This document shows positions 12,406 to 23,646 of a DNA stretch of 64,000 nt, piece after piece. The notes under the pieces are model-generated. The model was not told the origin of the DNA and did no database searches. It saw only the letters and a program-made list of their open reading frames with translations. The DNA is from Skermanella pratensis (GTDB taxonomy: Bacteria > Pseudomonadota > Alphaproteobacteria > Azospirillales > Azospirillaceae): NCBI RefSeq assembly GCF_008843145.1, contig NZ_CP030265.1, positions 3,712,501-3,776,500 on the forward strand. The letters are read 5' to 3'. The position numbers and the translations under genes were made by a program. Positions within the stretch are counted from its first letter, which is position 1. Each line of letters starts with the position of its first letter.

Positions 12406-13030
12406 GGTCCGCCTTTCGCAGCGCCAATCCCGGCATGCTCCGGATCGGAGCCGCATCGGGAGCGTCATCCCTCCATGACATGTGGGAACTGCCCGGGAGT
12501 TTTGCATCGAATCAATTGCCATCGGGAGCCGGCCGCCCCGCGCACCGTCCGGTCTGGAAGTTACCGTAAGCCATTTAGGTGTTAAGCACCTAGAGATGGT
12601 GGAAATCTGCTCACAGAAAATGCATTTTAGTCTTACGGATCGGATTTGGATTGCAAGTTAATCCAGAAGAGAAGCGTGTGCTATGAGAGAGAGTCCGGCG
12701 CTGGTCGATCCTGAGATTATCATTCTATAGAACATTGCTGGATTCATCAGGTGCATTCAGCATTGGGCATAAAAGAATGCTGCTGCACGTAGGTCGGGTA
12801 TAGCGAATCCGCACCCGACAAGCAGAAGTTCCGAGTTAAAGGTGAATTTAGAGAATCATTACCCGACAAGTGAAAGCATCGGTGTCGGGTGCCGCCTCGC
12901 TATACCCGACCTACGTTTTCAAAAAACAATTTTTTGGGCCGGAAGTGAACTGCTTCACATGAATACTCCGCAGACTGAGTGATCATTTTCTTCTGGGATA
13001 TGTCACGACGACTTCCTGAGGGGATACATC
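12406..13030. other. 625-base AT-richer intergenic region
   Basis: No credible gene. The stretch 12560-12790 is clearly more AT-rich than its surroundings, with runs such as GCATTTTAGTC and CATTGGGCATAAAAGAATGC. It is followed by the inverted-repeat element at 12788-12915, then by AAAAAACAATTTTTT (12921-12935), a short perfect palindrome just before the 13031 gene. The promoter of that gene presumably lies here. Confidence 0.55.
12788..12915. repeat. MITE/REP-like element with 33-bp terminal inverted repeats
   Basis: The left arm (12788-12820) begins CGTAGGTCGGGTATAGCG and ends GCACCCGACA; the right arm (12883-12915) is its reverse complement with about 4 mismatches, in the middle of the arm. 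Between them is another ACCCGACAAG copy (12861-12870), also seen at 12813-12822. No coding frame lies inside. The GTAGGTCGGGT...ACCCGACA form resembles widespread palindromic repeats moved by REP-associated transposases; none is encoded here. It sits 115 bases before the hemopexin/M15 gene cluster. Confidence 0.8.
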
Positions 13031-14341
13031 ATGCCAAGTCAGCTTACCGGATCGGTGGCATTGCCCAGCGATGAGTGCCTGCTGTTCTCGGACAATGTCT
13101 ACCATGTGCTTGACGCTGTCACCGGTATGGTCGGCGACGGGCCGCTGCCGGTCACGGACCGCTGTTCCGGGCTCTGGTCCATGGGGAAGGTCGTTCCCGT
13201 CTACTGGGGCTGCGGCAAAGTGTTCTTCTTCAACGGTCCGGAGTTCGTGCGCTTCGACCTGAACACGCAGCAGGTCGACTATCCCGAGCCGCGCATCGTC
13301 GCCCATGGCTGGCCGGGCTTGTGGCCGTCGGGGATCGATGCCGCCTTCAACGCCGGCAACGGCAAGATCTATTTCTTCAAGGGCGGCGCCTACATCCGAT
13401 ACGACATGGCGCTGGACCGCGCAGACCCGGGATACCCCCGCAGCATCGCCGGGAACTGGCCGGGCGTCTGGACGGACGGGGTGGACGCCGCGCTCTGCCC
13501 CGACGGGCTCACCGTCCTGTTCTTCAGGGGCACCGAGCACGTGATCTATGATCTCCTGAGCGACGCCGTCGTCGCCGGGCCGCTGCCCAACGACCGGCTG
13601 ATGATCGATCCCCTGCCCTCCGGCCTCATGCGGCCCGCCCGCGAACTGACGCCGGAACAGGCCAACGGCATCGTGGCGCACCTGGCGCAGCGTGGACAGC
13701 TGACGCTCAAGGAAGGCCAGAACCCGCTGAGGCTGGCCGATGACGGCCGGATCCTGTCCCCGACACCCCGGCAGCGGATCGCGCTGGCGCCGGCCGTGGT
13801 CGCGGGCGTGCGCTATGTCAACAAGCTGAACCGCGCCGCCGACGTCATCGACAATGTGGATCAGCGGATGGCCGTCGCGCTGTGGCGGCTCGCCCGCTGG
13901 GCCAACGCATCCGGCCCGGACGTCGATGTCATCACGCATCTGGGGATAGGCCATGGCGGACCGAACCTGGACGACTGCCACAATCTCGGACGCGCGATCG
14001 ACTTCGCCGGCATCGAGGGGTCGCTTTCCGGCCGGCCCTTCGCCCTGGACGTGCTGCGCGACTGGGGCGGCCGGCCGGAAAGCGACCCGGGCAGCTACCG
14101 CCTGAGCGAGGACGACGAACCCGCCTGGGAGCTTTTCAAGCGGGTCTATGCCTTCGGCACTTTCGAGTGCGAGTGCCGCGGCGCGGGCAAGGACCCCTGG
14201 CCGCCGACCGAGATCGGCGAAGGGGGCTATGTGATCTGCCCCGATTACCACGGCGCCGGCACACCCGACGAACTGCGCCTGCGCCGGCAGCACTCCGACC
14301 ACATCCACATGCAGATCGGCCCTACCCGCGGCGCCTGGTGA
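13031..14341 (+). CDS. Hemopexin-repeat protein with C-terminal M15-type peptidase
   Basis: A 436-residue protein in two parts. Residues about 14-195 form four hemopexin-type repeats, a full four-bladed propeller; clear units include GKVFFFNGPEFVRFD and GIDAAFNAGNGKIYFFKGG with YIRYD. Residues about 235-436 look like a zinc M15 peptidase (D-Ala-D-Ala carboxypeptidase fold): H-x6-D in CHNLGRAIDFAG and the final HxH in SDHIHMQIG. Such enzymes cut peptidoglycan stem peptides. No signal peptide or membrane segment is visible, so the route to the cell wall, if that is the target, is unknown. It is the first of five same-strand genes; GAGGGG lies about 9 bases upstream. The pairing of hemopexin with M15 is unusual. 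Confidence 0.85.
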   Translation: MPSQLTGSVALPSDECLLFSDNVYHVLDAVTGMVGDGPLPVTDRCSGLWSMGKVVPVYWGCGKVFFFNGPEFVRFDLNTQQVDYPEPRIVAHGWPGLWPSGIDAAFNAGNGKIYFFKGGAYIRYDMALDRADPGYPRSIAGNWPGVWTDGVDAALCPDGLTVLFFRGTEHVIYDLLSDAVVAGPLPNDRLMIDPLPSGLMRPARELTPEQANGIVAHLAQRGQLTLKEGQNPLRLADDGRILSPTPRQRIALAPAVVAGVRYVNKLNRAADVIDNVDQRMAVALWRLARWANASGPDVDVITHLGIGHGGPNLDDCHNLGRAIDFAGIEGSLSGRPFALDVLRDWGGRPESDPGSYRLSEDDEPAWELFKRVYAFGTFECECRGAGKDPWPPTEIGEGGYVICPDYHGAGTPDELRLRRQHSDHIHMQIGPTRGAW

Positions 14342-14376
14342 GGCGCTTTGGTCAACCCGCAGAAGGAAGCTTTGCA

Positions 14377-15837
14377 ATGGCCTATACCCTGAACGAGCTT
14401 GGCCGCACGCTGCGCGCCCAGCTTGCCGAGATCGTCACCGGCGGCGATGCCACGGCGGCGGCCGCCGCGGACAGCTTCATCACCTGGTGCACCCCCGGCA
14501 TGCCCATGGAGGAGTCGGACTTCGACTTCGCGGCGAAGGGGCTGGGCACCGGAGCCACCGCCGAGGAGGAGAAGCGGCTGCTGCAACAGGCCTATGTCTT
14601 CTCGACCCTGGTCGATTTCATACCCGACGTGTCGGGGCTGCTGTCGATCGACAAGCAGGTGGCGGTGTTCCGCACGTCGCAGGCCCGCCTGTCCCACATG
14701 TACGGCGAAATCCTGCGGCTGTCGAAGGTGGTCGACCAGGAGCTGTCGCCCGAGAACCTGGCCAAGCTGGAGCGGTGGCGCGGCAAGCTGAAGACGACAC
14801 GCAAGATCAAGGACTTCATCACCGACGAGGAAAAGGAGGTCACCGAGGATTCTCCGGCGGTGGCCGCCTACAACAAGTATTTCGCGGACTTCCTCGCCGC
14901 CCGCCTCGAATACAACAACAAGCGCATCCAGGCGGCGGTCGCCACCGGCGCCGAAGGCAAGGCGGCCGTGATGGATTGGTCGTCGAACCAGCCGCTCTAC
15001 CGCATGAAGGTCAGCCAGGCCGAAGGCAACTGGGCGGCCATGGGCTACCGGAACGAGGTGGAGCAGCTCTGGGCGGCGATCGGCCAGATGACGGCCCGCA
15101 GCATGAAGCTGTGGAAGCAGCGCCTGCTGGAATCCTTGGACGATTCGAAGGTCGCGGCCGTCGGCCCGGGCCAGACCTTCCTGTACGCGATGCCGATACC
15201 CGGCAACTTCGCGAACGCCAAGGGCTGGACGGAGTACAAGGTCTATTCGAACAGGCTCACTTCGGAGATGGAGCAGAAATCCAGGTCGTGGAGCGCCGGA
15301 GGGTCGGCCGGCTGGGGCCTCTGGCATGCCAGCGCCGGAGTGCAGAGCCAGAGCTCGCAGTATTCCAGCGAATTCTCGGTCTCCAACTTCGAACTGGGCT
15401 TCGAGCTGGCGCAGATCCCGATCACCCGGGCTTGGTTCTACCCCGAATTCTTCATGAACCGGGGCTGGACGCTGGACCGGGGCCGCGGGTGGAATTACGA
15501 CCAGTTCCCATCCGACGGCGCGAACCCGCCCAAGGGCAACTTCGTCGGCTATCCGACCTCGATCATCTTCGCGCGCAAGATCAACATCAAGTCGTCCGAG
15601 TTCGCCTCGGCCTACCGCGCGCATACCAGCAGCCTGTCCACCAGCGCCAGCGCCGGCTGGGGACCTTTCACGATGCGCGGCAACTATTCCTCCTCGGAGA
15701 GCGGCCGCAGCTACGAGAGCAACGCTTCGGGTGAGTCGATCACGGTACCGGGAATGCAGATCATCGGTTTCGTGAACCGGCTGGTGCCGAAGAGCCCGAA
15801 TCCGTTCCCCGACATTCCGGCCGAAGCTTTCGAGTAA
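14377..15837 (+). CDS. Unknown protein A of the hemopexin/M15 cluster
   Basis: A 486-residue protein of no family I recognise, without a signal peptide. The first 250 residues are mostly helical (QAEGNWAAMGYRNEVEQLW near 230). The rest is beta-rich, with Ser/Gly/Ala/Trp-rich segments (RSWSAGGSAGWGLWHASAG and LSTSASAGWGPFTMRGNYS), as in strand-forming amphipathic hairpins of pore-forming proteins. Between them is ITRAWFYPEFFMNRGW, then SDGANPPKGNFVGYP. The end, VPGMQIIGFVNRLVPKSPNP, has a partner in the next gene's protein. A ribosome site GAAGGAAG precedes ATG 14377. It follows the hemopexin/M15 gene by 35 bases. Confidence 0.8.
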   Translation: MAYTLNELGRTLRAQLAEIVTGGDATAAAAADSFITWCTPGMPMEESDFDFAAKGLGTGATAEEEKRLLQQAYVFSTLVDFIPDVSGLLSIDKQVAVFRTSQARLSHMYGEILRLSKVVDQELSPENLAKLERWRGKLKTTRKIKDFITDEEKEVTEDSPAVAAYNKYFADFLAARLEYNNKRIQAAVATGAEGKAAVMDWSSNQPLYRMKVSQAEGNWAAMGYRNEVEQLWAAIGQMTARSMKLWKQRLLESLDDSKVAAVGPGQTFLYAMPIPGNFANAKGWTEYKVYSNRLTSEMEQKSRSWSAGGSAGWGLWHASAGVQSQSSQYSSEFSVSNFELGFELAQIPITRAWFYPEFFMNRGWTLDRGRGWNYDQFPSDGANPPKGNFVGYPTSIIFARKINIKSSEFASAYRAHTSSLSTSASAGWGPFTMRGNYSSSESGRSYESNASGESITVPGMQIIGFVNRLVPKSPNPFPDIPAEAFE

Positions 15838-15883
15838 TACCGGCGGTATCCGGCAGAAGCATTCGTCATCCGAGGACACGATC

Positions 15884-17464
15884 ATGGACGCAGCGGTACA
15901 GCTTGCCCTGATGGAGAAACTGAAGGCCGTTCTGGCCGAGCCGGGGACCTTCATCTCCTTCCCCACCGTGCCGCTCTCGTTCACGAGCGACGGGCTGGCG
16001 TCGATCATCGACGGGGCGCAGACACCGGGGGAGCTTCAGATCCAGACGTCGTGGCTCGGTGCCGTCAACCAGGTACCGAGCGGCGAGATGCTGATGAGCC
16101 TGAGCGACCGCTACCTGTGGAAAGCGTTCGCCGATGTCGTCCACAGCCCCGTGAAGCTGGCGCAGGGCAACTTCTCGGCAGAGGACCAAGCGGCGCTGAC
16201 CGCGGCGGAGGCGACGCTCTATCGCGCCGACCCTGCCACCGGCCAGCGCATGCCGTCCGACAAGCTGAAGGCTTACGACCAGCATCGGGACGTCTGGTTC
16301 GGCTGGAACCAGACGCTCCGCAAGCGGGAGATCGAGGTCGCGGATTCGGCCGATCCGGAAGAGCGGAACTACTGGGACGAGGTCGAGCGGCCGACCTATC
16401 TCGGCAAGATCCGCGAGGCGGAGGATCTGTGGCGCGTCGCCGGTTTCCGCCAGGAGATCGATGCCGCCTACGGCATGGTCAAGGCGTTCGCGGCGCGCGG
16501 TCCCAGCCAGTCCTGGACCCAGTGGGGAAGCAGGCTGTCGCTCGACATCGATACCCAGAGCGACATCAACAGCGTGAAGTCGGTCCCCACCGGCTTCAGC
16601 CCGGTCGACTTCATGAATGCGGGCACCTGGCCGTCGTTCACGCTCGGCAACGGGGAGGTCGGGGCGCTGCTGGCGCGGGCACCCGCGGACCTGCTGCAAC
16701 GCTTCGCCGTGACGGGAGTGTCGCCGGACATCGTCAGCGTATCCTTCGAGTACACGTCGGTGACGATCCTGCGGGACTGGTTCGCGCCAGAGGTATTCCA
16801 GGCCCGCTTCTGGCGCTTCACCGATGAAGGACGGCTGCTGTCCGACGGCGCCACGCCGCCCCGGGGCGAGCTGCCGGGCTATATCGCCGCCGTGGTGTTC
16901 CTGCGGAACCTGGTCGTCGAACGCCGCGCCGGCAGCCAGCCGGAGCCGCCCCGGCCCGGCCTCGTCATCAGCCCGTTCATCGGGCTCCGCCAGGACCGGA
17001 TCGCCGTCGCGCCGGCCCCCGGCGGGGTCCGGCCGCCGCCCCGGACGGTGACGGTGCGGGATCATCGCGTGGGAACACCGATCCGGGCCGGCGGTGGAGT
17101 GCCGACGGTCCGGGCCGCCGCGATGCAGCCTGCCGTCGCCATGCGCCTCGCCGGCATCGCGGGCGCGGCGGAGGTCCGTCCCAGGGCCACGGCGGTCAGC
17201 GCGGAGCCGCGCGTCGCGGCGCTGAAGGCCCAGACCTTCAGCCGGCTCGACACGAAATACGCCGACATCGCCTCCGTCGAGCGGGAACTGGCGGTCCGGC
17301 GTCCAGGAATCCGGCCGCTGCCCTTTCCCCGGCCCGGGCAGCCGCCGCCGGCACAGGTCACCCGCCAGACCGCCTTCACGGACGGCGACATGGGGGTGCT
17401 GGCCTTCGTCTGCCGGTCCCTGCCCCGCTGCCCCGATCCCGATCCGGCGCTGGTGTGGACGTGA
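15884..17464 (+). CDS. Unknown protein B of the hemopexin/M15 cluster, related to A
   Basis: A 526-residue protein of no recognised family and no signal peptide. It shares with protein A a helical segment (YLGKIREAEDLWRVAGFRQE) and the module ILRDWFAPEVFQARFW, LLSDGATPPRGELPGY, then VVFLRN. The C-terminal part (about 350-490) is a Pro/Arg/Ala-rich, probably disordered linker, and the protein ends DMGVLAFVCRSLPRCPDPDP, matching the last 20 residues of protein A. The repeated Trp/Ser hairpins of A are missing. It lies 46 bases after A with CGAGGA upstream. A and B look like an ancient duplication, perhaps subunits of one complex; this is inference. Confidence 0.8.
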   Translation: MDAAVQLALMEKLKAVLAEPGTFISFPTVPLSFTSDGLASIIDGAQTPGELQIQTSWLGAVNQVPSGEMLMSLSDRYLWKAFADVVHSPVKLAQGNFSAEDQAALTAAEATLYRADPATGQRMPSDKLKAYDQHRDVWFGWNQTLRKREIEVADSADPEERNYWDEVERPTYLGKIREAEDLWRVAGFRQEIDAAYGMVKAFAARGPSQSWTQWGSRLSLDIDTQSDINSVKSVPTGFSPVDFMNAGTWPSFTLGNGEVGALLARAPADLLQRFAVTGVSPDIVSVSFEYTSVTILRDWFAPEVFQARFWRFTDEGRLLSDGATPPRGELPGYIAAVVFLRNLVVERRAGSQPEPPRPGLVISPFIGLRQDRIAVAPAPGGVRPPPRTVTVRDHRVGTPIRAGGGVPTVRAAAMQPAVAMRLAGIAGAAEVRPRATAVSAEPRVAALKAQTFSRLDTKYADIASVERELAVRRPGIRPLPFPRPGQPPPAQVTRQTAFTDGDMGVLAFVCRSLPRCPDPDPALVWT

Positions 17465-17535
17465 CGGCCGTCGCCGGCTGAAGAACCCGAAGAACCGCGC
17501 CGTTCAGCATTCCCATGAACCTGAGAGGTCGACCC

Positions 17536-18300
17536 ATGTCTTTCACCGAGCTTGTCAACGTTCCGGCCGGCATCAACCCAGACGTCAGCAGCGCCAAGCA
17601 GGCGACCATGCTGTCCCTGCTCGGCAACCCGCGGCAATCCTATGACCAGGAATGCCGGGAAGTGACGGATATCAGGCTGGCGTCCATGATCGTCTTCCGG
17701 CCGGTGGGCCGCCTGAGGGTCCGGGGACTCCGCCCGGCGGTCGACTCCCTGGAAAGGGTCCTTGCCGACATCCAACGGGAGGAGCCGGCAATCCATGCCG
17801 TGCTGGGCCATGTGGGCATGCTGTGCGCCCGCAATGTCCGGGGCTCCAATACCGCGATCAGCAACCATTCCTGGGGGACGGCCATCGACCTCACGCTGGA
17901 AGGAATCCTCGACCGGCGGGGTGACGACAGGGTGCAGGTCGGCCTGACGAGGATCGCGCCGATCTTCAATGGACACGGGTGGTTCTGGGGTGCCGGCTTC
18001 CGCACCGAGGACGCCATGCATTTCGAATGCGGCGACGAGCTCATCCGGCAATGGCACCGGGACGGATTGCTGCAGGGATTGGCTCCGGCCACTGTGCCGG
18101 ACCCGGTGCTGAGCCTGGGCGACCGTGGCCCCGAGGTGGTGGAGTTGCAGAGGAAGCTGAACGAATTCGGTGCCGGGCTGGTCGCGGACGGGATCTTCGG
18201 ACGCGGCACCCACGCCGCCGTCATGGCTTTCCAGGCACGGAACGGACTTTCCGCCGACGGTGTTGTAGGCCCAATGACGCGCAGGGCTCTGGGTCTTTGA
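17536..18300 (+). CDS. M15 D-Ala-D-Ala carboxypeptidase-like protein with peptidoglycan-binding domain
   Basis: This 254-residue protein has a zinc M15 peptidase domain: the H-x6-D motif in SNHSWGTAIDLTLEG and the downstream EDAMHFECGDEL motif with the last zinc histidine. Residues about 190-254 are a peptidoglycan-binding type 1 domain (LSLGDRGPEVVELQRKLNEF, then DGIFGRGTHAAVMAFQ and GPMTRRALGL). The target is expected to be peptidoglycan cross-links or stem peptides. I start it at ATG 17536, with GAGAGG 7 bases upstream, instead of an ATG 7 codons earlier. It lacks a signal peptide, as do the three genes before it. The stop overlaps the start of the next gene (TGATG). Confidence 0.87.
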   Translation: MSFTELVNVPAGINPDVSSAKQATMLSLLGNPRQSYDQECREVTDIRLASMIVFRPVGRLRVRGLRPAVDSLERVLADIQREEPAIHAVLGHVGMLCARNVRGSNTAISNHSWGTAIDLTLEGILDRRGDDRVQVGLTRIAPIFNGHGWFWGAGFRTEDAMHFECGDELIRQWHRDGLLQGLAPATVPDPVLSLGDRGPEVVELQRKLNEFGAGLVADGIFGRGTHAAVMAFQARNGLSADGVVGPMTRRALGL

Positions 18301-18863
18301 TGGCGATGCGGAAACTGCAAGGCAAGGCGGCCCGGGTGGCCGGGGCGGTGGGCATGATGCTCGCCGCCCTGCCCGCCGGGGCGCAGGTCAGCGACTACAC
18401 CTCCGTGGCGGAGGGCGGCTGCCGGCCGCCGCCGCCGGAGATGGGTGCCGTCTACCAGGCCCTCGACCTGGGGGTGGAACTGTGCGGAGCTCCGCCGGGC
18501 ATCGACCTGCTGCTCGTTTCGTCCGACCGCAGCTCATGGCTCGACATCGCGCGGGGCGACCGGATCTGGACGACCGAGGACGCCGTCGTCTATGACCGGC
18601 CGGTCGGCGATTTTCCGAATATAGGTGCGGAGAAGGTAGAATGGCGGCTCGCTCCCGGCAGCCAGCCCGGCGCGCTGATCTTCCGCGTCGCGGGTGAGGC
18701 GGAGGGCGCGCGACGCACCCTCCTGTTCGTCGCCAGGATCGAGTCGGACGCGGCTTGCCTGCTCGGGCGTGTCGCCACCAACGAGGAAGCCAGGGCCCTC
18801 GCCGACGGTCCGGGGACCTGCGACGAGGAAAACCAGCTGCCTCTCAGGCCGCGATTCCCGTAG
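18300..18863 (+). CDS. Secreted protein of unknown function, end of hemopexin/M15 cluster
   Basis: A 187-residue protein with a Sec signal peptide: Lys/Arg-rich start, hydrophobic AGAVGMMLAALPAGAQ, cleavage probably after AGAQ near residue 29. The mature protein has four cysteines (GGCRPP, ELCGAP, AACLLG, GTCDEE) that could form two disulfides. It contains a small beta-rich domain without recognisable motifs. The start ATG overlaps the stop of the M15 gene by two bases, so the two are coupled. As the only gene in the cluster with an export signal, it might act as an inhibitor or immunity-like partner for the M15 enzymes in the periplasm. That is speculation from position. Confidence 0.75.
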   Translation: MAMRKLQGKAARVAGAVGMMLAALPAGAQVSDYTSVAEGGCRPPPPEMGAVYQALDLGVELCGAPPGIDLLLVSSDRSSWLDIARGDRIWTTEDAVVYDRPVGDFPNIGAEKVEWRLAPGSQPGALIFRVAGEAEGARRTLLFVARIESDAACLLGRVATNEEARALADGPGTCDEENQLPLRPRFP

Positions 18864-18874
18864 GATCGGGAGGT

Positions 18875-19939
18875 TTACCGGCGCGGAACCGGGATACGGG
18901 CCGCGCCGCCGTCCTCGACGCCCGTGAGCGTCTTCATGAACTCGACAAGGTCCGTGCGGCCCTGCTCGTCGAGTTCCAGCGGAACCATCGCCGGGGACCG
19001 GCTCGGGCGGGCGATGCCCCCCTTCTCGTAATGGACGACCACATCGTAAAGAGTCGACGACGAGCCGTTGTGCATGAAGGGCGGGCGGACCGCCACCGAC
19101 CGGAGCGTCGGGGTCTTGAAGGCGTACTGCATCATCCCGTCCGCCTTGTCCTGCCGTCCGCGGCCAAGATCGGTGGTCGTGGTGCCGATATCGTGAAAGG
19201 CATCGTCCGTGAAGCGCCAGCCGCCGTGGCATGCGGAGCAACCGGCCGCGGTGTTGAACAGCAGAAAGCCGCGCTTGGCGGAGTCGGAGATGGCGGTCTC
19301 GTCGCCCTCCACCCAGCGGTCGAAGGGAGCGACGCCCGGCTCGATCGTCCGCTCGTAGGCGGCGATCGCCGTCACGATGGCATCGATATCGATGGAGGAA
19401 CCCGGCAGGGCCGCGCCGAAGGCGGAGACATAGTCGGGCACGGCGCGGACCCGTTCCTCGATGACCGCGACCTCCACCGGCGTGTCGGTCTCGCGCATCG
19501 ACATCGATCCCGTCGCGATGGACGACTTGGCCTGCGCTTCGAGGGTGGCGCTCTTGCCGTCCCATCCCACCGGCGCGCCGTCGGCATGTCCGAGACCGAC
19601 CAGGGGCTGGGACTTGCGGGAAGTCGGCTTGCCTGAATCGTTGAGGCTGCGCGGGTCGGTCGCGGCCCAGGCGGCATCGGGGAAATGGCAGCTTCCGCAC
19701 GAGGTCTTGCCGGAGGCGGACAGCCTGGTATCCCAGAACAGGCGCCCGCCGAGATCGACGAGAGCCTGGTTCGCGACCGCGAGCGCGGCCGGGCGTCGAT
19801 AGGCCTCCTTCAGCGCATCGAGTTCCTCGCCATGATCCGCCCGGCCCTGGGCCAGGACGGGCGGCGTTCCCAAGCCCTGGACAAGGGCGATCATCGCGGC
19901 GCCGAACCCGACCGCGAAAAGTGTCTTAGTGATGCGCAT
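18875..19939 (-). CDS. Di-haem cytochrome c peroxidase (CCP/MauG family)
   Basis: A 354-residue periplasmic protein with a signal peptide ending near ...PPVLAQG (about residue 32). Two haem c motifs are present: CGSCH at 81-85 and CSACH in AAGCSACHGGWRF, and the haem-ligand region GMMQYAFKTPTLRSVA with PPFMHNGSSSTLYDVV near the C-terminus. The family reduces H2O2 with electrons from cytochrome c, or, in MauG-like members, oxidises protein residues. It is convergent with the secreted gene at 18863 (11 bases apart) and divergent from the histidine phosphatase gene. Nothing next to it suggests a specific partner. Confidence 0.92.
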   Translation of the reverse strand: MRITKTLFAVGFGAAMIALVQGLGTPPVLAQGRADHGEELDALKEAYRRPAALAVANQALVDLGGRLFWDTRLSASGKTSCGSCHFPDAAWAATDPRSLNDSGKPTSRKSQPLVGLGHADGAPVGWDGKSATLEAQAKSSIATGSMSMRETDTPVEVAVIEERVRAVPDYVSAFGAALPGSSIDIDAIVTAIAAYERTIEPGVAPFDRWVEGDETAISDSAKRGFLLFNTAAGCSACHGGWRFTDDAFHDIGTTTTDLGRGRQDKADGMMQYAFKTPTLRSVAVRPPFMHNGSSSTLYDVVVHYEKGGIARPSRSPAMVPLELDEQGRTDLVEFMKTLTGVEDGGAARIPVPRR

Positions 19940-20158
19940 AAAAATGCCTTTGCTTAAACCCGCCGGTCAGCGCGAAGAAACTTTCAACCTTGACCGGCGT
20001 TCATCTCTCGTCCCGCAATACAATATGTGGCAGACCAACTGTACAAGTATGACTTTGTTACTATAGATCAAAATTCTTAAATAAAACTCTATTAACTGAT
20101 GTTTAATCTCTTCAGATAAACATCCGTGAAGACACAAAAAGTCAACGGAGTTTTCAAA
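19940..20158. promoter_or_regulatory. AT-rich divergent promoter region
   Basis: The 219 bases between the peroxidase and the histidine phosphatase gene are far more AT-rich than the rest of the window (for example TATAGATCAAAATTCTTAAA at 20061-20080). Both divergent promoters should lie here. No clear regulator site was recognised. Confidence 0.5.
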
Positions 20159-20782
20159 ATGTGCGTAAAATATGCTAAAATTTCGATGATGGCGATGACC
20201 GTTGTCGGCGGAATGCTTATGACTTCGATGAGCGCCCAAGCCGAGGAGCTGAAGGGCGACGCCTTGTTCTCGGCCCTCAAGAACGGCGGCTACGTCATCT
20301 ACATCCGCCATGCGCTTTCGGACACGTCGCAGAACGACGCCGACCCGATCGACGTGGCGAACTGCCAGACCCAGCGCAACCTGTCGGCTGCCGGCAAGGA
20401 CCAGGCCCGTGCCATCGGAAAGGCCATGCAGGAGCGCGGCATCGCGGTCGACGCGGTGATGACCAGCGCCTATTGCCGCGCCAAGGAGACCGGGACGCTG
20501 GCGTTCGGCGACATCCAGACCTCCGACGCGCTGTTCTACAGCCTCGGACTGTCCAAGGATGACGCCGCCAAGGCCGCCGACCAGCTCAAGAAGATCATCG
20601 GCACCGCCCCGCCGGCCGGCAAGAACACCGTCCTGGTCGGCCACACGTCCAACATCAAGGAAGTCGCCGGCGTCTGGCCGAAGACCGAAGGCGGCGCCTT
20701 CGTCATGGAGCCGAAAGGCGCCGGAAACTTCGCGGTCGTCGGCTCTTTCTCCGCCGAAGATCTTATCAAGACCGCCAACTGA
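20159..20782 (+). CDS. Secreted histidine phosphatase family protein
   Basis: A 207-residue protein with a Sec signal peptide ([20 protein letters not shown], then QAEE; cleavage near residue 29). The mature domain has the phosphoglycerate-mutase-like catalytic start [11 protein letters not shown] with the nucleophile His, the second arginine in AYCRAKETG, and the second His in VLVGHTSNI. It also has [17 protein letters not shown], typical of the family. The RHA in place of RHG occurs in some members. Substrate unknown; these periplasmic forms are probably phosphatases. ATG 20159 has ACGGAG about 10 bases upstream; a GTG 11 codons earlier is possible but lies before a less natural signal sequence. 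Confidence 0.88.
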
Positions 20783-20876
20783 AGTCGTGGCCGGCGCGGA
20801 GGCGATCTGCCGGCGCCTCCGCGCGGCTGCTGGTTCGCGAAAGCCGGATACCGTCATCGACGAGGTCGCCATCACT

Positions 20877-22571
20877 ATGAGATTCGCTCCGCTCACGCTC
20901 CGCGCCCGCCTGATGGGTTTGCCGGCGATCGCCCTGGTGGTGCTCGTCGTCCTGGCCGGCGGCGCCATTTACATGTCGCATACCGAAGGCGAGGCGATCG
21001 CCGGTATCAAGACCCGCGAAATCGCCCGCAACGAGGCCGTCACAAGGTTCCTTGCCGACCTCTCGCGGACCCAGCGCATGCTTTCCGAGATCCTGGGGAC
21101 GGGCGAGGGAGCGGACGCCGAGCGGATCTTCGAGCAAGGGCGGGCCGCCATGGACACGGTCCGCGCGCTGACGGACAGCTTCGCCCAGCAGGGCGCGCTC
21201 TTCGCCGGCGATCCCGAGATAGCCTCGGTTCATGCCGACGCCGCCAAGGAGGCCGCCTCCTACCGGAGCGCCGTCGTCTCCGCCCTCCAGCTCGCCACCG
21301 CCGACCCCGAGCTGGCCGCTCCGCAGCTCCAGCGGGCCACCCGCTCCTATGTTAAGCTGGTCGAGCAGATGGGACGCGCGCTCGACCTGACCGGATTCGG
21401 CCTGTCGGGGGAACTCAACAAGCTCGGCGACGGCTCGGAGCGGATGGCCACCGTCCTGGCGGGAATCACCGTGCTGTCCATCCTCGTGCTGATGCTGGCG
21501 AGCTGGGTGATCTACCGGAACATAGCCGGCAGCCTGCATGCGGTGACGGGCGTGATGGGCAAGCTGGCCCGCAACGACCTTCAGGTCGAGGTAAGCGGCC
21601 AGGAGCGGTCGGACGAGATCGGCGCGATGATGCGGGCGGTCCAGGTCTTCAAGGACACCATGATCCGCACCCGCGAGATGGAGCGGGAGTCGCGGGAAGC
21701 CGAGGTGCGGGTCGCGGCCGAGCGCAAGGCGGCGATGCTCCATCTCGCCGACGCCTTCGAGGCGAGCGTCAAGGGCATCGTCGAGACGGTAGCCTCCGCC
21801 GCGACCGAGATGCAGAGCACCGCGTCGGTGATGACCCACACCGCGGACACCACCAGCCAGCAGGCGACGGCGGTGGCCGCCGCGTCGGAGCAGGCGTCCG
21901 CCAACGTCCAGACCGTGGCCGCCGCGACCGAGGAGCTGTCCTCCTCCATCGCCGAGATCGGCCGGCAGATCAACGGTTCCAGCCAAGTCGCCAACCTGGC
22001 GGTGACCGAGGCGAGCCGCACCAACGAGACCATGAAGGTGCTGGTCCAGGCGGCCGAGCAGATCGGCCAGGTGGTCGAGCTGATCAACACCATCGCCGGC
22101 CAGACCAACCTGCTGGCGCTGAACGCCACGATCGAGGCGGCGCGCGCCGGGGAGGCCGGCAAGGGCTTCGCGGTGGTGGCTTCGGAGGTCAAGTCGCTGG
22201 CGACCCAGACCGCCCGGGCGACCGAGGAGATCAAGTCGAAGGTCAGCGAGATCCAGGGCGCCACCAACGGAGCCCAGCTTGCGATCGACGGCATCGGCAG
22301 GATCATCGGGCAGATGAACGAGATCACCACGACCATCGCCGCCGCGATCGAGGAACAGGGCGCCGCCACGCGCGACATCTCCTCCAACGTCAGTCAGGCG
22401 GCGCGGGGCACCGAGGAGGTCTCGTCCAACATCACCGGCGTGACCCAGGCCGCCGGAGAGACCGGAGCCGCGGCATCCCAGGTGCTCGGTGCCTCCGAGG
22501 GCCTGGCGCGAGAGGCGGAGAACCTGCGCGGCGAGGTCGCAAGCTTCATCGCGAACATCCGGGCCGCCTGA
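20877..22571 (+). CDS. Methyl-accepting chemotaxis protein
   Basis: A 564-residue transmembrane chemoreceptor. TM1 is at about 15-33 and TM2 at about 191-212, enclosing a helical periplasmic sensor of about 155 residues. A HAMP domain follows (213-265), then a cytoplasmic signalling domain with the highly conserved tip [20 protein letters not shown] and [20 protein letters not shown]. The sensor is a helical-bundle type with no recognised ligand site. The ATG at 20877 has GAGG about 12 bases upstream, a long spacing. It follows the histidine phosphatase by 94 bases and overlaps the convergent gldA-like gene by 26 bases at its 3' end. Confidence 0.95.
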
Positions 22572-23646
22572 CGGCCGCCCGGCCGTCCAGGGCGCGCATG
22601 GCCCGGACCAGGTCCTCCGCGGCGAGAGCGCGTTCGAAGTTGCGGGCGTGCGGGGCCTGGAGGGTCAGCTCGGCGATGACGGCATAGTCGTCCTCGGTCG
22701 GAACGGCGAGTCCCAGGTCGGCAAGCCCGCAGGGGAGGCCGAGCGCGCGGTAGAAGGCCAGATGGTCATCCATGAAGGGCGGATCACGTCCTTCGAGCAG
22801 GAATTGGACCAGCAAGGCGTAGGCGACCTGAAGGCCGTGCAGCGCCCCGGCCAAGGCCGGCACGGCGGACAGGCCGCGGGTCATGGAATGGACGATGGAC
22901 AGCCCGCCATTCTCGAACGCGAGGCCGCTCCACAGGACGGTCGCCTCCACCACGCGCTCCACCGCCTCGTCGGTTTCCCTCCGGTCCACCGCCGCGAGCG
23001 CCGCGGCCGCGTGGTCGCGCAGGCAGCGGTAGCAGGCATCGCCGAGGACAAGGCCCGCTTGCGACGGACGGCTTCCGTAGATGTTCCGCCCGCCGCTACG
23101 GGCGCATTGCGCCGCCTCGAAGGACTTGACCAGCGCATCCCCGATGCCGGCGAGGAAAAGGATGCGGGGCGCCCGGACGATGACAGCGGTATCCACCAGC
23201 ACCAGCGCGGGATTGCGCGGCAGCTTGTCGACGCGGAGCAGGCGGTGGTCCTCGTCGTAGAGCACATAGACGTGGCTGGTCGGCGCATCGTTCGAGGCGA
23301 TCGTCGGCAGGCTCGCCACCTCGGCCCCGAGCCGGGCCGCCAAGCCCTTGCCGGCGTCGATGCATTTTCCGCCGCCGGCCGCGATGACCACGTCCGGGCG
23401 TCGGCCGCCGAGCGCGCCGAAGAGCCGGTCGATCTCCCCGGGCGTGATCTCGCCCCCGAAAGCCAGCTTGCCGAGGGCGACGCCCGCGGCATCGCAGCTC
23501 GCGGCCACCCGCCCGCCGACGATCCCGTCGACCACGTCGTCGGCGACGAGCACCGCGCTCTTGCCGAGCCGGCCGATCTCCTCCCCGATCCTGTCGAGCG
23601 TTCCCGGACCCTGGATGTAACGGCCGGGAGAGCCGAAGATGATCAT
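22546..23646 (-). CDS. Glycerol dehydrogenase-like iron/zinc alcohol dehydrogenase
   Basis: A 366-residue enzyme of the GldA group: NAD-dependent oxidation of a polyol, or reduction of a ketone. It has the NAD motif [19 protein letters not shown] and the metal-site regions [18 protein letters not shown] and [13 protein letters not shown]. Typical length is 360-370. I start it at ATG 23646 ([15 protein letters not shown]), with AAGGA 6 bases upstream. The N-terminus and GSPxRYIQGPG match GldA. It is divergent from the LysR gene (116-base gap) and may be its target. It could feed the neighbouring sugar-acid pathways. Confidence 0.9.

Follow-up and report, generated by a model that had tools for sequence, protein, structure and literature searches.

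A candidate pore-forming protein with length-matched segments beside an exchangeable enzyme slot in a five-gene cassette of Skermanella pratensis

Within a 64,000-nucleotide window of the Skermanella pratensis genome (contig NZ_CP030265.1; G000:C1:3712501-3776500; genome G000 is 5.87 Mb on one contig and 99.83% complete), five consecutive genes encode a hemopexin-repeat protein, two paralogous proteins of no known family, here called A and B, an endolysin-type peptidase and a small, putatively exported protein. Protein A contains two separate Gly/Ser/aromatic (Trp/Ser/Gly) segments, conserved among its relatives, whose four arms keep matching lengths and lengthen jointly, and in other genomes the slot beside the A/B pair is taken by changing types of wall hydrolase or protease. 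We propose that A is a two-hairpin pore former, that B is its non-inserting partner and that the enzymes attack the wall, a mechanism which, taken in full, we judge to have about an even chance of being right.

Results

The lengths of the four arms were measured between the anchors W284-G314-R351 and R400-F431-Q461 in 30 A-like proteins, using a profile alignment in which 11 of the proteins were rows, L060 among them, and to which L019 and L105 did not belong. Lengths of 30/37/31/30 were found in 23 of the 27 fully measurable A members, down to approximately 20% identity. The arms kept their commonest length in 23 to 27 of the 30 proteins, as compared to 9 to 19 of the 30 for six control segments of A. 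The protein of L034 showed arms of 29/39/31/30. All four arms were longer in L060 (46/48/41/44), in L105 (43/48/45/44) and in the archaeal L019 (84/91/87/78), where each arm had gained 48 to 56 residues. This archaeal protein, measured over 699 residues, one short of its open frame, counts 359 residues that are not part of the arms, versus 358 in the A of the window, and 212 of its 213 extra residues fall within the arms. Its gene carries tandem repeats with 24-nucleotide (8-residue) periods, which by eye form one array per arm around retained apolar tips. The tips of the candidate hairpins are apolar and aromatic even where the arms consist of long hydrophilic repeats.

Because the lengths of four arms, located in two separate stretches, shift together, the pairing of their strands in one barrel would be the simplest cause of the co-variation. 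In pore-forming MACPFs the two transmembrane hairpins (TMHs) are described as equal in length (PMC5483515, excerpt). The two segments of A follow the same rule as the TMH segments of the MACPF/CDC family, with arms of 30/37 and 31/30 residues that lengthen jointly, and may therefore be TMHs themselves. The original prediction, made from the DNA alone, had likened the Trp/Ser/Gly segments of A to those of pore-forming proteins, a resemblance that is strengthened by their conservation and their matched arms.

A and B are homologous to each other (hhalign 99.85%, E 8e-31, 346 columns). Searches of Pfam, NCBIfam, PHROGs, PADLOC and the PDB sequences yielded nothing significant for either, and readings of A and B as members of known families were dropped on these profile and PDB sequence searches. 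Among 14 A members, weak Pfam matches occurred to Porin_4 (three members, best 3.9e-4) and to Fil_haemagg_2 (three members, best 6.7e-4), which could be caused by Gly/Ser-rich strands or repeats. The comparison of B with bpMoxR gave 0.17, far below the cut-off. The two proteins had been predicted to be related and of no recognised family, and both points are borne out, with no match to a housekeeping family. As paralogues they are of one kind, but they are unequal: B has no counterpart of the first hairpin segment of A and carries a variable Pro-rich stretch in place of the second. Relatives of B end in a LysM domain in L014 (PF01476) and in L017 and L097 (both by our own model), and in L032 a LysM piece follows B (own model).

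The neighbours of A/B were surveyed in 38 loci, namely 37 fetched loci and the window, many of which are close relatives and hence non-independent. A hydrolase or protease was found next to the pair in 24 of the 38 and a hemopexin domain in 15 of the 38. The co-occurrence with wall hydrolases in other genomes thus agrees with what had been predicted. The role of M15 peptidases as the partner was confirmed in part only: they are present in three loci, but otherwise the slot rotates between glucosaminidase, lysozyme-like, amidase-like, subtilase, trypsin and caspase types, so that some relatives have a protease instead (Table 1). Of the four proteins with a lysozyme-like domain, the one of L016 alone had further support, a weak PHROG endolysin match (2.7e-4), and a GH25 gene is also present in that locus; in L017, PG_binding_1 and the lysozyme-like domain are on one protein. 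With our own models, all hits to hemopexin (15/15), PG_binding_1 (10/10) and LysM (4/4) lay no more than 3 kb from A/B, a zone that holds 41% of the flanking bases; as these models contain some of the sequences concerned and near relatives repeat, this enrichment is to be taken as support and not as a p-value. In the archaeal locus L019 (5463-9171), B is on the strand opposite to A and is followed by an S-layer gene (PF07752, 1.7e-60). Finally, a response-regulator-like gene, as read from its sequence, stands immediately before A in L098, L099 and L100, hinting at signal-controlled expression of A in these loci.

Table 1. Occupants of the slot beside the A/B pair
Neighbour	Loci	Remarks
M15	window, L037, L038	
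Hemopexin + glucosaminidase	7 Streptomyces loci	5 by Pfam; L009 and L010 by own model
Lysozyme-like domain	L014, L016, L017, L097	sequence reading; no Pfam or PDB match
Subtilase + PG_binding_1	L015	
Trypsin	L033	barely past cut-off
Caspase + PG_binding_1	L063, L098, L100	
M15-like domain (gene 1 C-terminal type)	L060	putative
Hemopexin + weak Amidase_2	L106	1e-3, below cut-off; PHROG endolysin 1.1e-8
Phage-tail lysozyme + partial PG_binding_1	L101	other strand, 1.3 kb away
Weak GH46	L102	below cut-off
Beta-lactamase-family enzyme	L105	
OmpA-family gene	L024	no enzyme counted
No hydrolase or wall-binding neighbour	L012, L013, L019, L020, L025, L034, L061, L062, L099, L103, L104, L107	L012 starts at the A/B pair and L099 stops there; the scan did not cover every neighbour

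Protein A is rare. Among 59 genomes searched as relatives (that of the window included) it occurred in three, all of the genus, and was found neither in the genus members G003 and G004 nor in 54 genomes outside the genus. A scan of genome contigs gave 15 A loci at 44-53% identity in Streptomyces, Nocardioides, Kribbella, a Frankiaceae metagenome-assembled genome (MAG), Roseateles and a Methanosarcinales MAG. The overall spread of A/B is sparse and covers Alphaproteobacteria, Burkholderiales, Actinomycetota and one archaeon. Surveys around individual carriers, each of which is included in its count, gave 2 of 398 genomes in the phylum of the window's strain, for a Streptomyces carrier 3 of 396 in its phylum and 7 of 200 in its family (some partial), for a Nocardioides carrier 11 of 293 in its order, for the Roseateles carrier 4 of 300 in its order, and 1 of 294 in the phylum of the archaeon. 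Two remote relatives of A are plasmid-borne, in Acuticoccus and Rhizobium, and no B was found in plasmids. A had no relative in 50,697 phage records or in IMG/VR, and B none in the phage records. In a tree, the A of the Rhizobium plasmid pairs with G677, which comes from actinomycete groups, with support of 100/99 and a long-branch warning near this join; this pairing indicates a transfer of A between phyla. Some Streptomyces copies of A (L010, the same record as L047, and L020) are broken by an in-frame stop or a frame change, so that the cassette is decaying in some strains.

Matched arms by themselves indicate pairing and not membrane insertion, and A and B could instead form a scaffold without a pore, holding wall enzymes at the surface for envelope remodelling, with the matched arms as the strands of a stalk. 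Hemopexin, LysM, PG_binding_1 and OmpA domains near A/B are compatible with such a role, as is the S-layer gene adjoining B in the archaeon. However, a stalk does not account well for apolar, aromatic tips that are retained even on long arms of hydrophilic repeats, and the sparse, transferable distribution is unlike that of a housekeeping surface system. We therefore regard the scaffold as quite improbable.

The five open reading frames were confirmed at the positions that had been predicted, all on the plus strand (Table 2), with the ATG of gene 5 overlapping the stop of gene 4. The whole set of five is collinear in G001 and G002, which represent two further species of the genus, and purifying selection acts on the genes (Nei-Gojobori dN/dS, own script, three species), so that the cluster is not due to chance. 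The dN/dS values were 0.03-0.06 for A, 0.11-0.15 for gene 1, 0.15-0.26 for gene 4, 0.21-0.35 for B and 0.27-0.39 for gene 5, which evolves faster than the other four. Constraint is strongest on A, the core of the cassette. No promoters were found, terminators were no more frequent than in shuffled sequences and Rfam gave no match at gathering scores. The window contains no tRNA genes and therefore no tRNA integration site.

Table 2. Genes and candidate hairpins of the cassette, numbered from the first position of the window
Feature	Position	Strand	Description
Gene 1	13031..14341	+	N-terminal hemopexin propeller (about residues 1-185) and C-terminal domain with zinc-peptidase-like motif
Gene 2, protein A (486 aa)	14377..15837	+	candidate pore former; 15 relatives at 44-53% identity; subject of the arm analysis
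Candidate hairpin 1 of A, with anchors	15226..15429	+	residues W284 to R351; arms of 30 and 37 residues
Candidate hairpin 2 of A, with anchors	15574..15759	+	residues R400 to Q461; arms of 31 and 30 residues
Gene 3, protein B (526 aa)	15884..17464	+	paralogue of A without hairpin segments
Gene 4	17536..18300 (alternative start 17515)	+	M15 peptidase and PG_binding_1, endolysin type
Gene 5	18300..18863	+	small candidate immunity protein, putatively exported (signal peptide by eye)

An inverted repeat of 34 nt with 91% complementarity and arms 62 nt apart lies upstream of gene 1 (12787-12916). It resembles an element of the repetitive extragenic palindrome or miniature inverted-repeat transposable element type, and within the window its 16-nt core is confined to its two arms; the DNA alignment with G001 is interrupted across this stretch. 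Downstream of gene 5, G001 and G002 resume at window position 22579. The stretch missing there at that site (18850-22579) holds cytochrome-peroxidase-like, phosphatase-like and chemoreceptor-like genes, as read from the sequence.

The N-terminal half of the gene 1 protein belongs to the hemopexin-repeat family (PF00045, 2.6e-19). The predicted propeller is thus present, but two repeats, not four, are individually significant in the window protein, and three or four in its relatives. The closest PDB match was vitronectin (4.2e-18), which has been named as a chaperone capturing precursors of the attack complex (PMC8526713, excerpt); hemopexins are similar to each other anyway, and we note this match as a curiosity only. 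Further hemopexin-repeat proteins were seen on Streptomyces and Nostoc plasmids (L040-L043, L045) and in L044, with no annotated A/B pair nearby; some of them are near BTAD regulators or S8 peptidases, or are themselves annotated as an M35 peptidase, and in L044 a C-terminal domain of the gene 1 type adjoins BTAD and S8 genes.

For the two M15 enzymes that had been predicted, the outcome differed. Gene 4 is an M15 peptidase, by its profile (PF13539, 2.1e-12) and by the HxxGxAxD motif, present as HSWGTAID, and carries PG_binding_1 (PF01471, 9.9e-18) with a PHROG endolysin match (4.9e-20). The C-terminal half of gene 1 matched no M15 profile, and its putative M15 label comes from the motif DCHxxGRAxD ... 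HxxHIHMQIG; it had no Pfam or PHROG match and chance-level hits only in the PDB, and its profile showed no resemblance to that of gene 4. The motif is kept in L039 (without the Asp), L044 and L060, its carriers being two Streptomyces-plasmid proteins and one that adjoins the A/B pair in L060. The phage MW202482.1 (L046, 3995-4543) encodes, directly after its portal gene, an annotated D-alanyl-D-alanine carboxypeptidase that shares 43% identity with the M15 portion of gene 4 and has no PG-binding domain.

As the original prediction had stated, a Sec signal peptide can be read by eye at the N-terminus of the gene 5 protein and none in those of genes 1-4. No plasmid carried a relative of gene 5 in a search that covered the genus and plasmids only. 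Wall enzymes that lack signal peptides, together with a neighbouring candidate protector that is apparently exported, form the layout of effector and immunity pairs, in which case the cassette would be the cargo of a contractile injection machine, either type VI secretion (T6SS) or an extracellular contractile injection system (eCIS), with gene 5 as the immunity protein. Hemopexin domains do occur in eCIS loci (PMC8213781, excerpt), and the carrier G001 has a T6SS sheath. Against this, neither sheath family (PF05943, PF04984) was found in the carriers G000 and G002, G000 being a single contig that may lack replicons, and the PF04984 sheath is missing in 11 of 16 carrier genomes. Within the limits of the one-contig assembly, injection cargo is thus unsupported for this strain, and we consider it very improbable.

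Discussion

In the mechanism we propose, A would assemble with B and the hairpins of A would form a barrel, while B, the paralogue without hairpins, could serve as a cap, regulator or adaptor. The hydrolases, apparently devoid of signal peptides like phage endolysins, would gain access to the wall through the breach, or next to it, and cut it, and in those relatives where a protease occupies the slot it may activate the pore instead. Hemopexin, PG_binding_1 and LysM would be reused as docking or wall-binding modules, and the probably exported gene 5 protein would shield the wall of the producer itself. The likeliest target would be the envelope of a competitor.

As a working analogue, complement comes closest: its poly-C9 barrel is described as having the width needed to admit lysozyme (PMC4742998, excerpt). 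With MACPF/CDC proteins, especially the membrane attack complex of complement in its joint action with lysozyme, the cassette shares two length-matched segments between conserved stretches, here the candidate hairpins of A, as well as paralogous subunits and a wall enzyme to which a pore could be of use. It differs in that A lacks Pfam or PDB sequence similarity to them and in that wall enzymes and proteases neighbour the A/B pair. The fold that defines MACPF/CDC proteins is a bent sheet of four strands with clusters of TMHs. Photopexins and other bacterial hemopexin-repeat proteins resemble gene 1 in the fusion of hemopexin repeats to another domain; in photopexins these are PA-IIL lectin-type domains (PMC2422844, excerpt), whereas in the present loci hemopexin is partnered by enzymes of wall type next to A/B.

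The main rival is programmed self-lysis or abortive death, in which A would open the cell's own inner membrane in the manner of a holin or gasdermin and the endolysin-type enzymes would cut its own wall, releasing the contents or stopping a phage. The endolysin type of gene 4 and the lack of readable signal peptides in genes 1-4 fit this, and are also what the cassette shares with phage holin-endolysin cassettes, from which it is set apart by large, soluble-looking A and B proteins and by the missing phage relatives of both (for A also in IMG/VR). In some relatives the partner is a caspase, trypsin or subtilase, which brings to mind the bacterial gasdermin loci, for which caspase-like and trypsin-like proteases are described (PMC9079055, excerpt), and these loci are likewise small and mobile, with a candidate pore former. 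In contrast to gasdermins, none of the 14 A members matched a gasdermin Pfam family at E up to 5, A has 486 residues, wall enzymes are present in the window and in most loci, and there is the hairpin-less paralogue B. A gasdermin would be activated through cleavage by a neighbouring protease, and such neighbours occur in some relatives only. Self-lysis is further at odds with an apparently exported gene 5 protein, with the apparent N-terminal signal peptide, read by eye, of the remote A in L034, and with four long archaeal arms that would be needless for reaching one's own membrane from inside; no PADLOC defence family was found among the five window proteins. The putative export of gene 5, the L034 signal peptide and the long arms beside an S-layer gene in the archaeon favour an outward attack. 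We consider self-lysis rather unlikely.

Several observations weigh against a two-hairpin pore former that works with wall enzymes. A had no sequence match to known pore formers, with no Pfam pore family in any of the 14 members, and the MACPF motif Y/F-G-T/S-H-x7-G-G (PMC5483515, excerpt) occurred in none of the 30 A proteins when searched as a pattern with x5-8. The case for the fold is made on the lengths of the arms. In three of the 30 (L102, L103, L107) hairpin 1 was not measurable and is possibly missing. The apolar/polar alternation of the candidate hairpins is only suggestive: the observed value was reached by 127 and 61 of 2000 shuffles, versus 1159 and 1028 for controls, and with another scale the hairpins were not top-ranked. 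Moreover, 12 of the 38 loci had no hydrolase or wall-binding neighbour, protease partners are poorly compatible with plain wall cutting, and the release route is one we only infer.

In summary, the core intuition of the original prediction was better borne out than its details. The co-occurrence of the five genes, which it had named as a check, extends to two further species; of the spore or encapsulation structure it offered as an alternative no sign was met, and no dedicated search was made for one. We entertain as possible, if rather doubtful, the broader idea that these loci are a hitherto undescribed prokaryotic equivalent of complement together with lysozyme: a beta-barrel pore that is mobile and made of two paralogues, with an exchangeable hydrolase or protease slot, docked via hemopexin or PG-binding modules, the height of the barrel being tuned to the envelope crossed and much taller in the archaeon with the adjoining S-layer gene. 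Among the matches listed from the open-licence PMC literature, preprints excluded, no description of hemopexin-hydrolase operons with an A/B-like pair was found.

If the proposed mechanism is correct, A and its relatives would constitute a bacterial and archaeal family of candidate large-pore proteins to which present libraries are blind, and the cassette would offer wall enzymes without signal peptides a route that needs no injection machine. Arms of 30 residues in most members and of 80-90 residues in the archaeon would then be a natural experiment in barrel length within one protein family. The A/B pair may also serve as a handle for discovering unknown hydrolases in the neighbouring slot.

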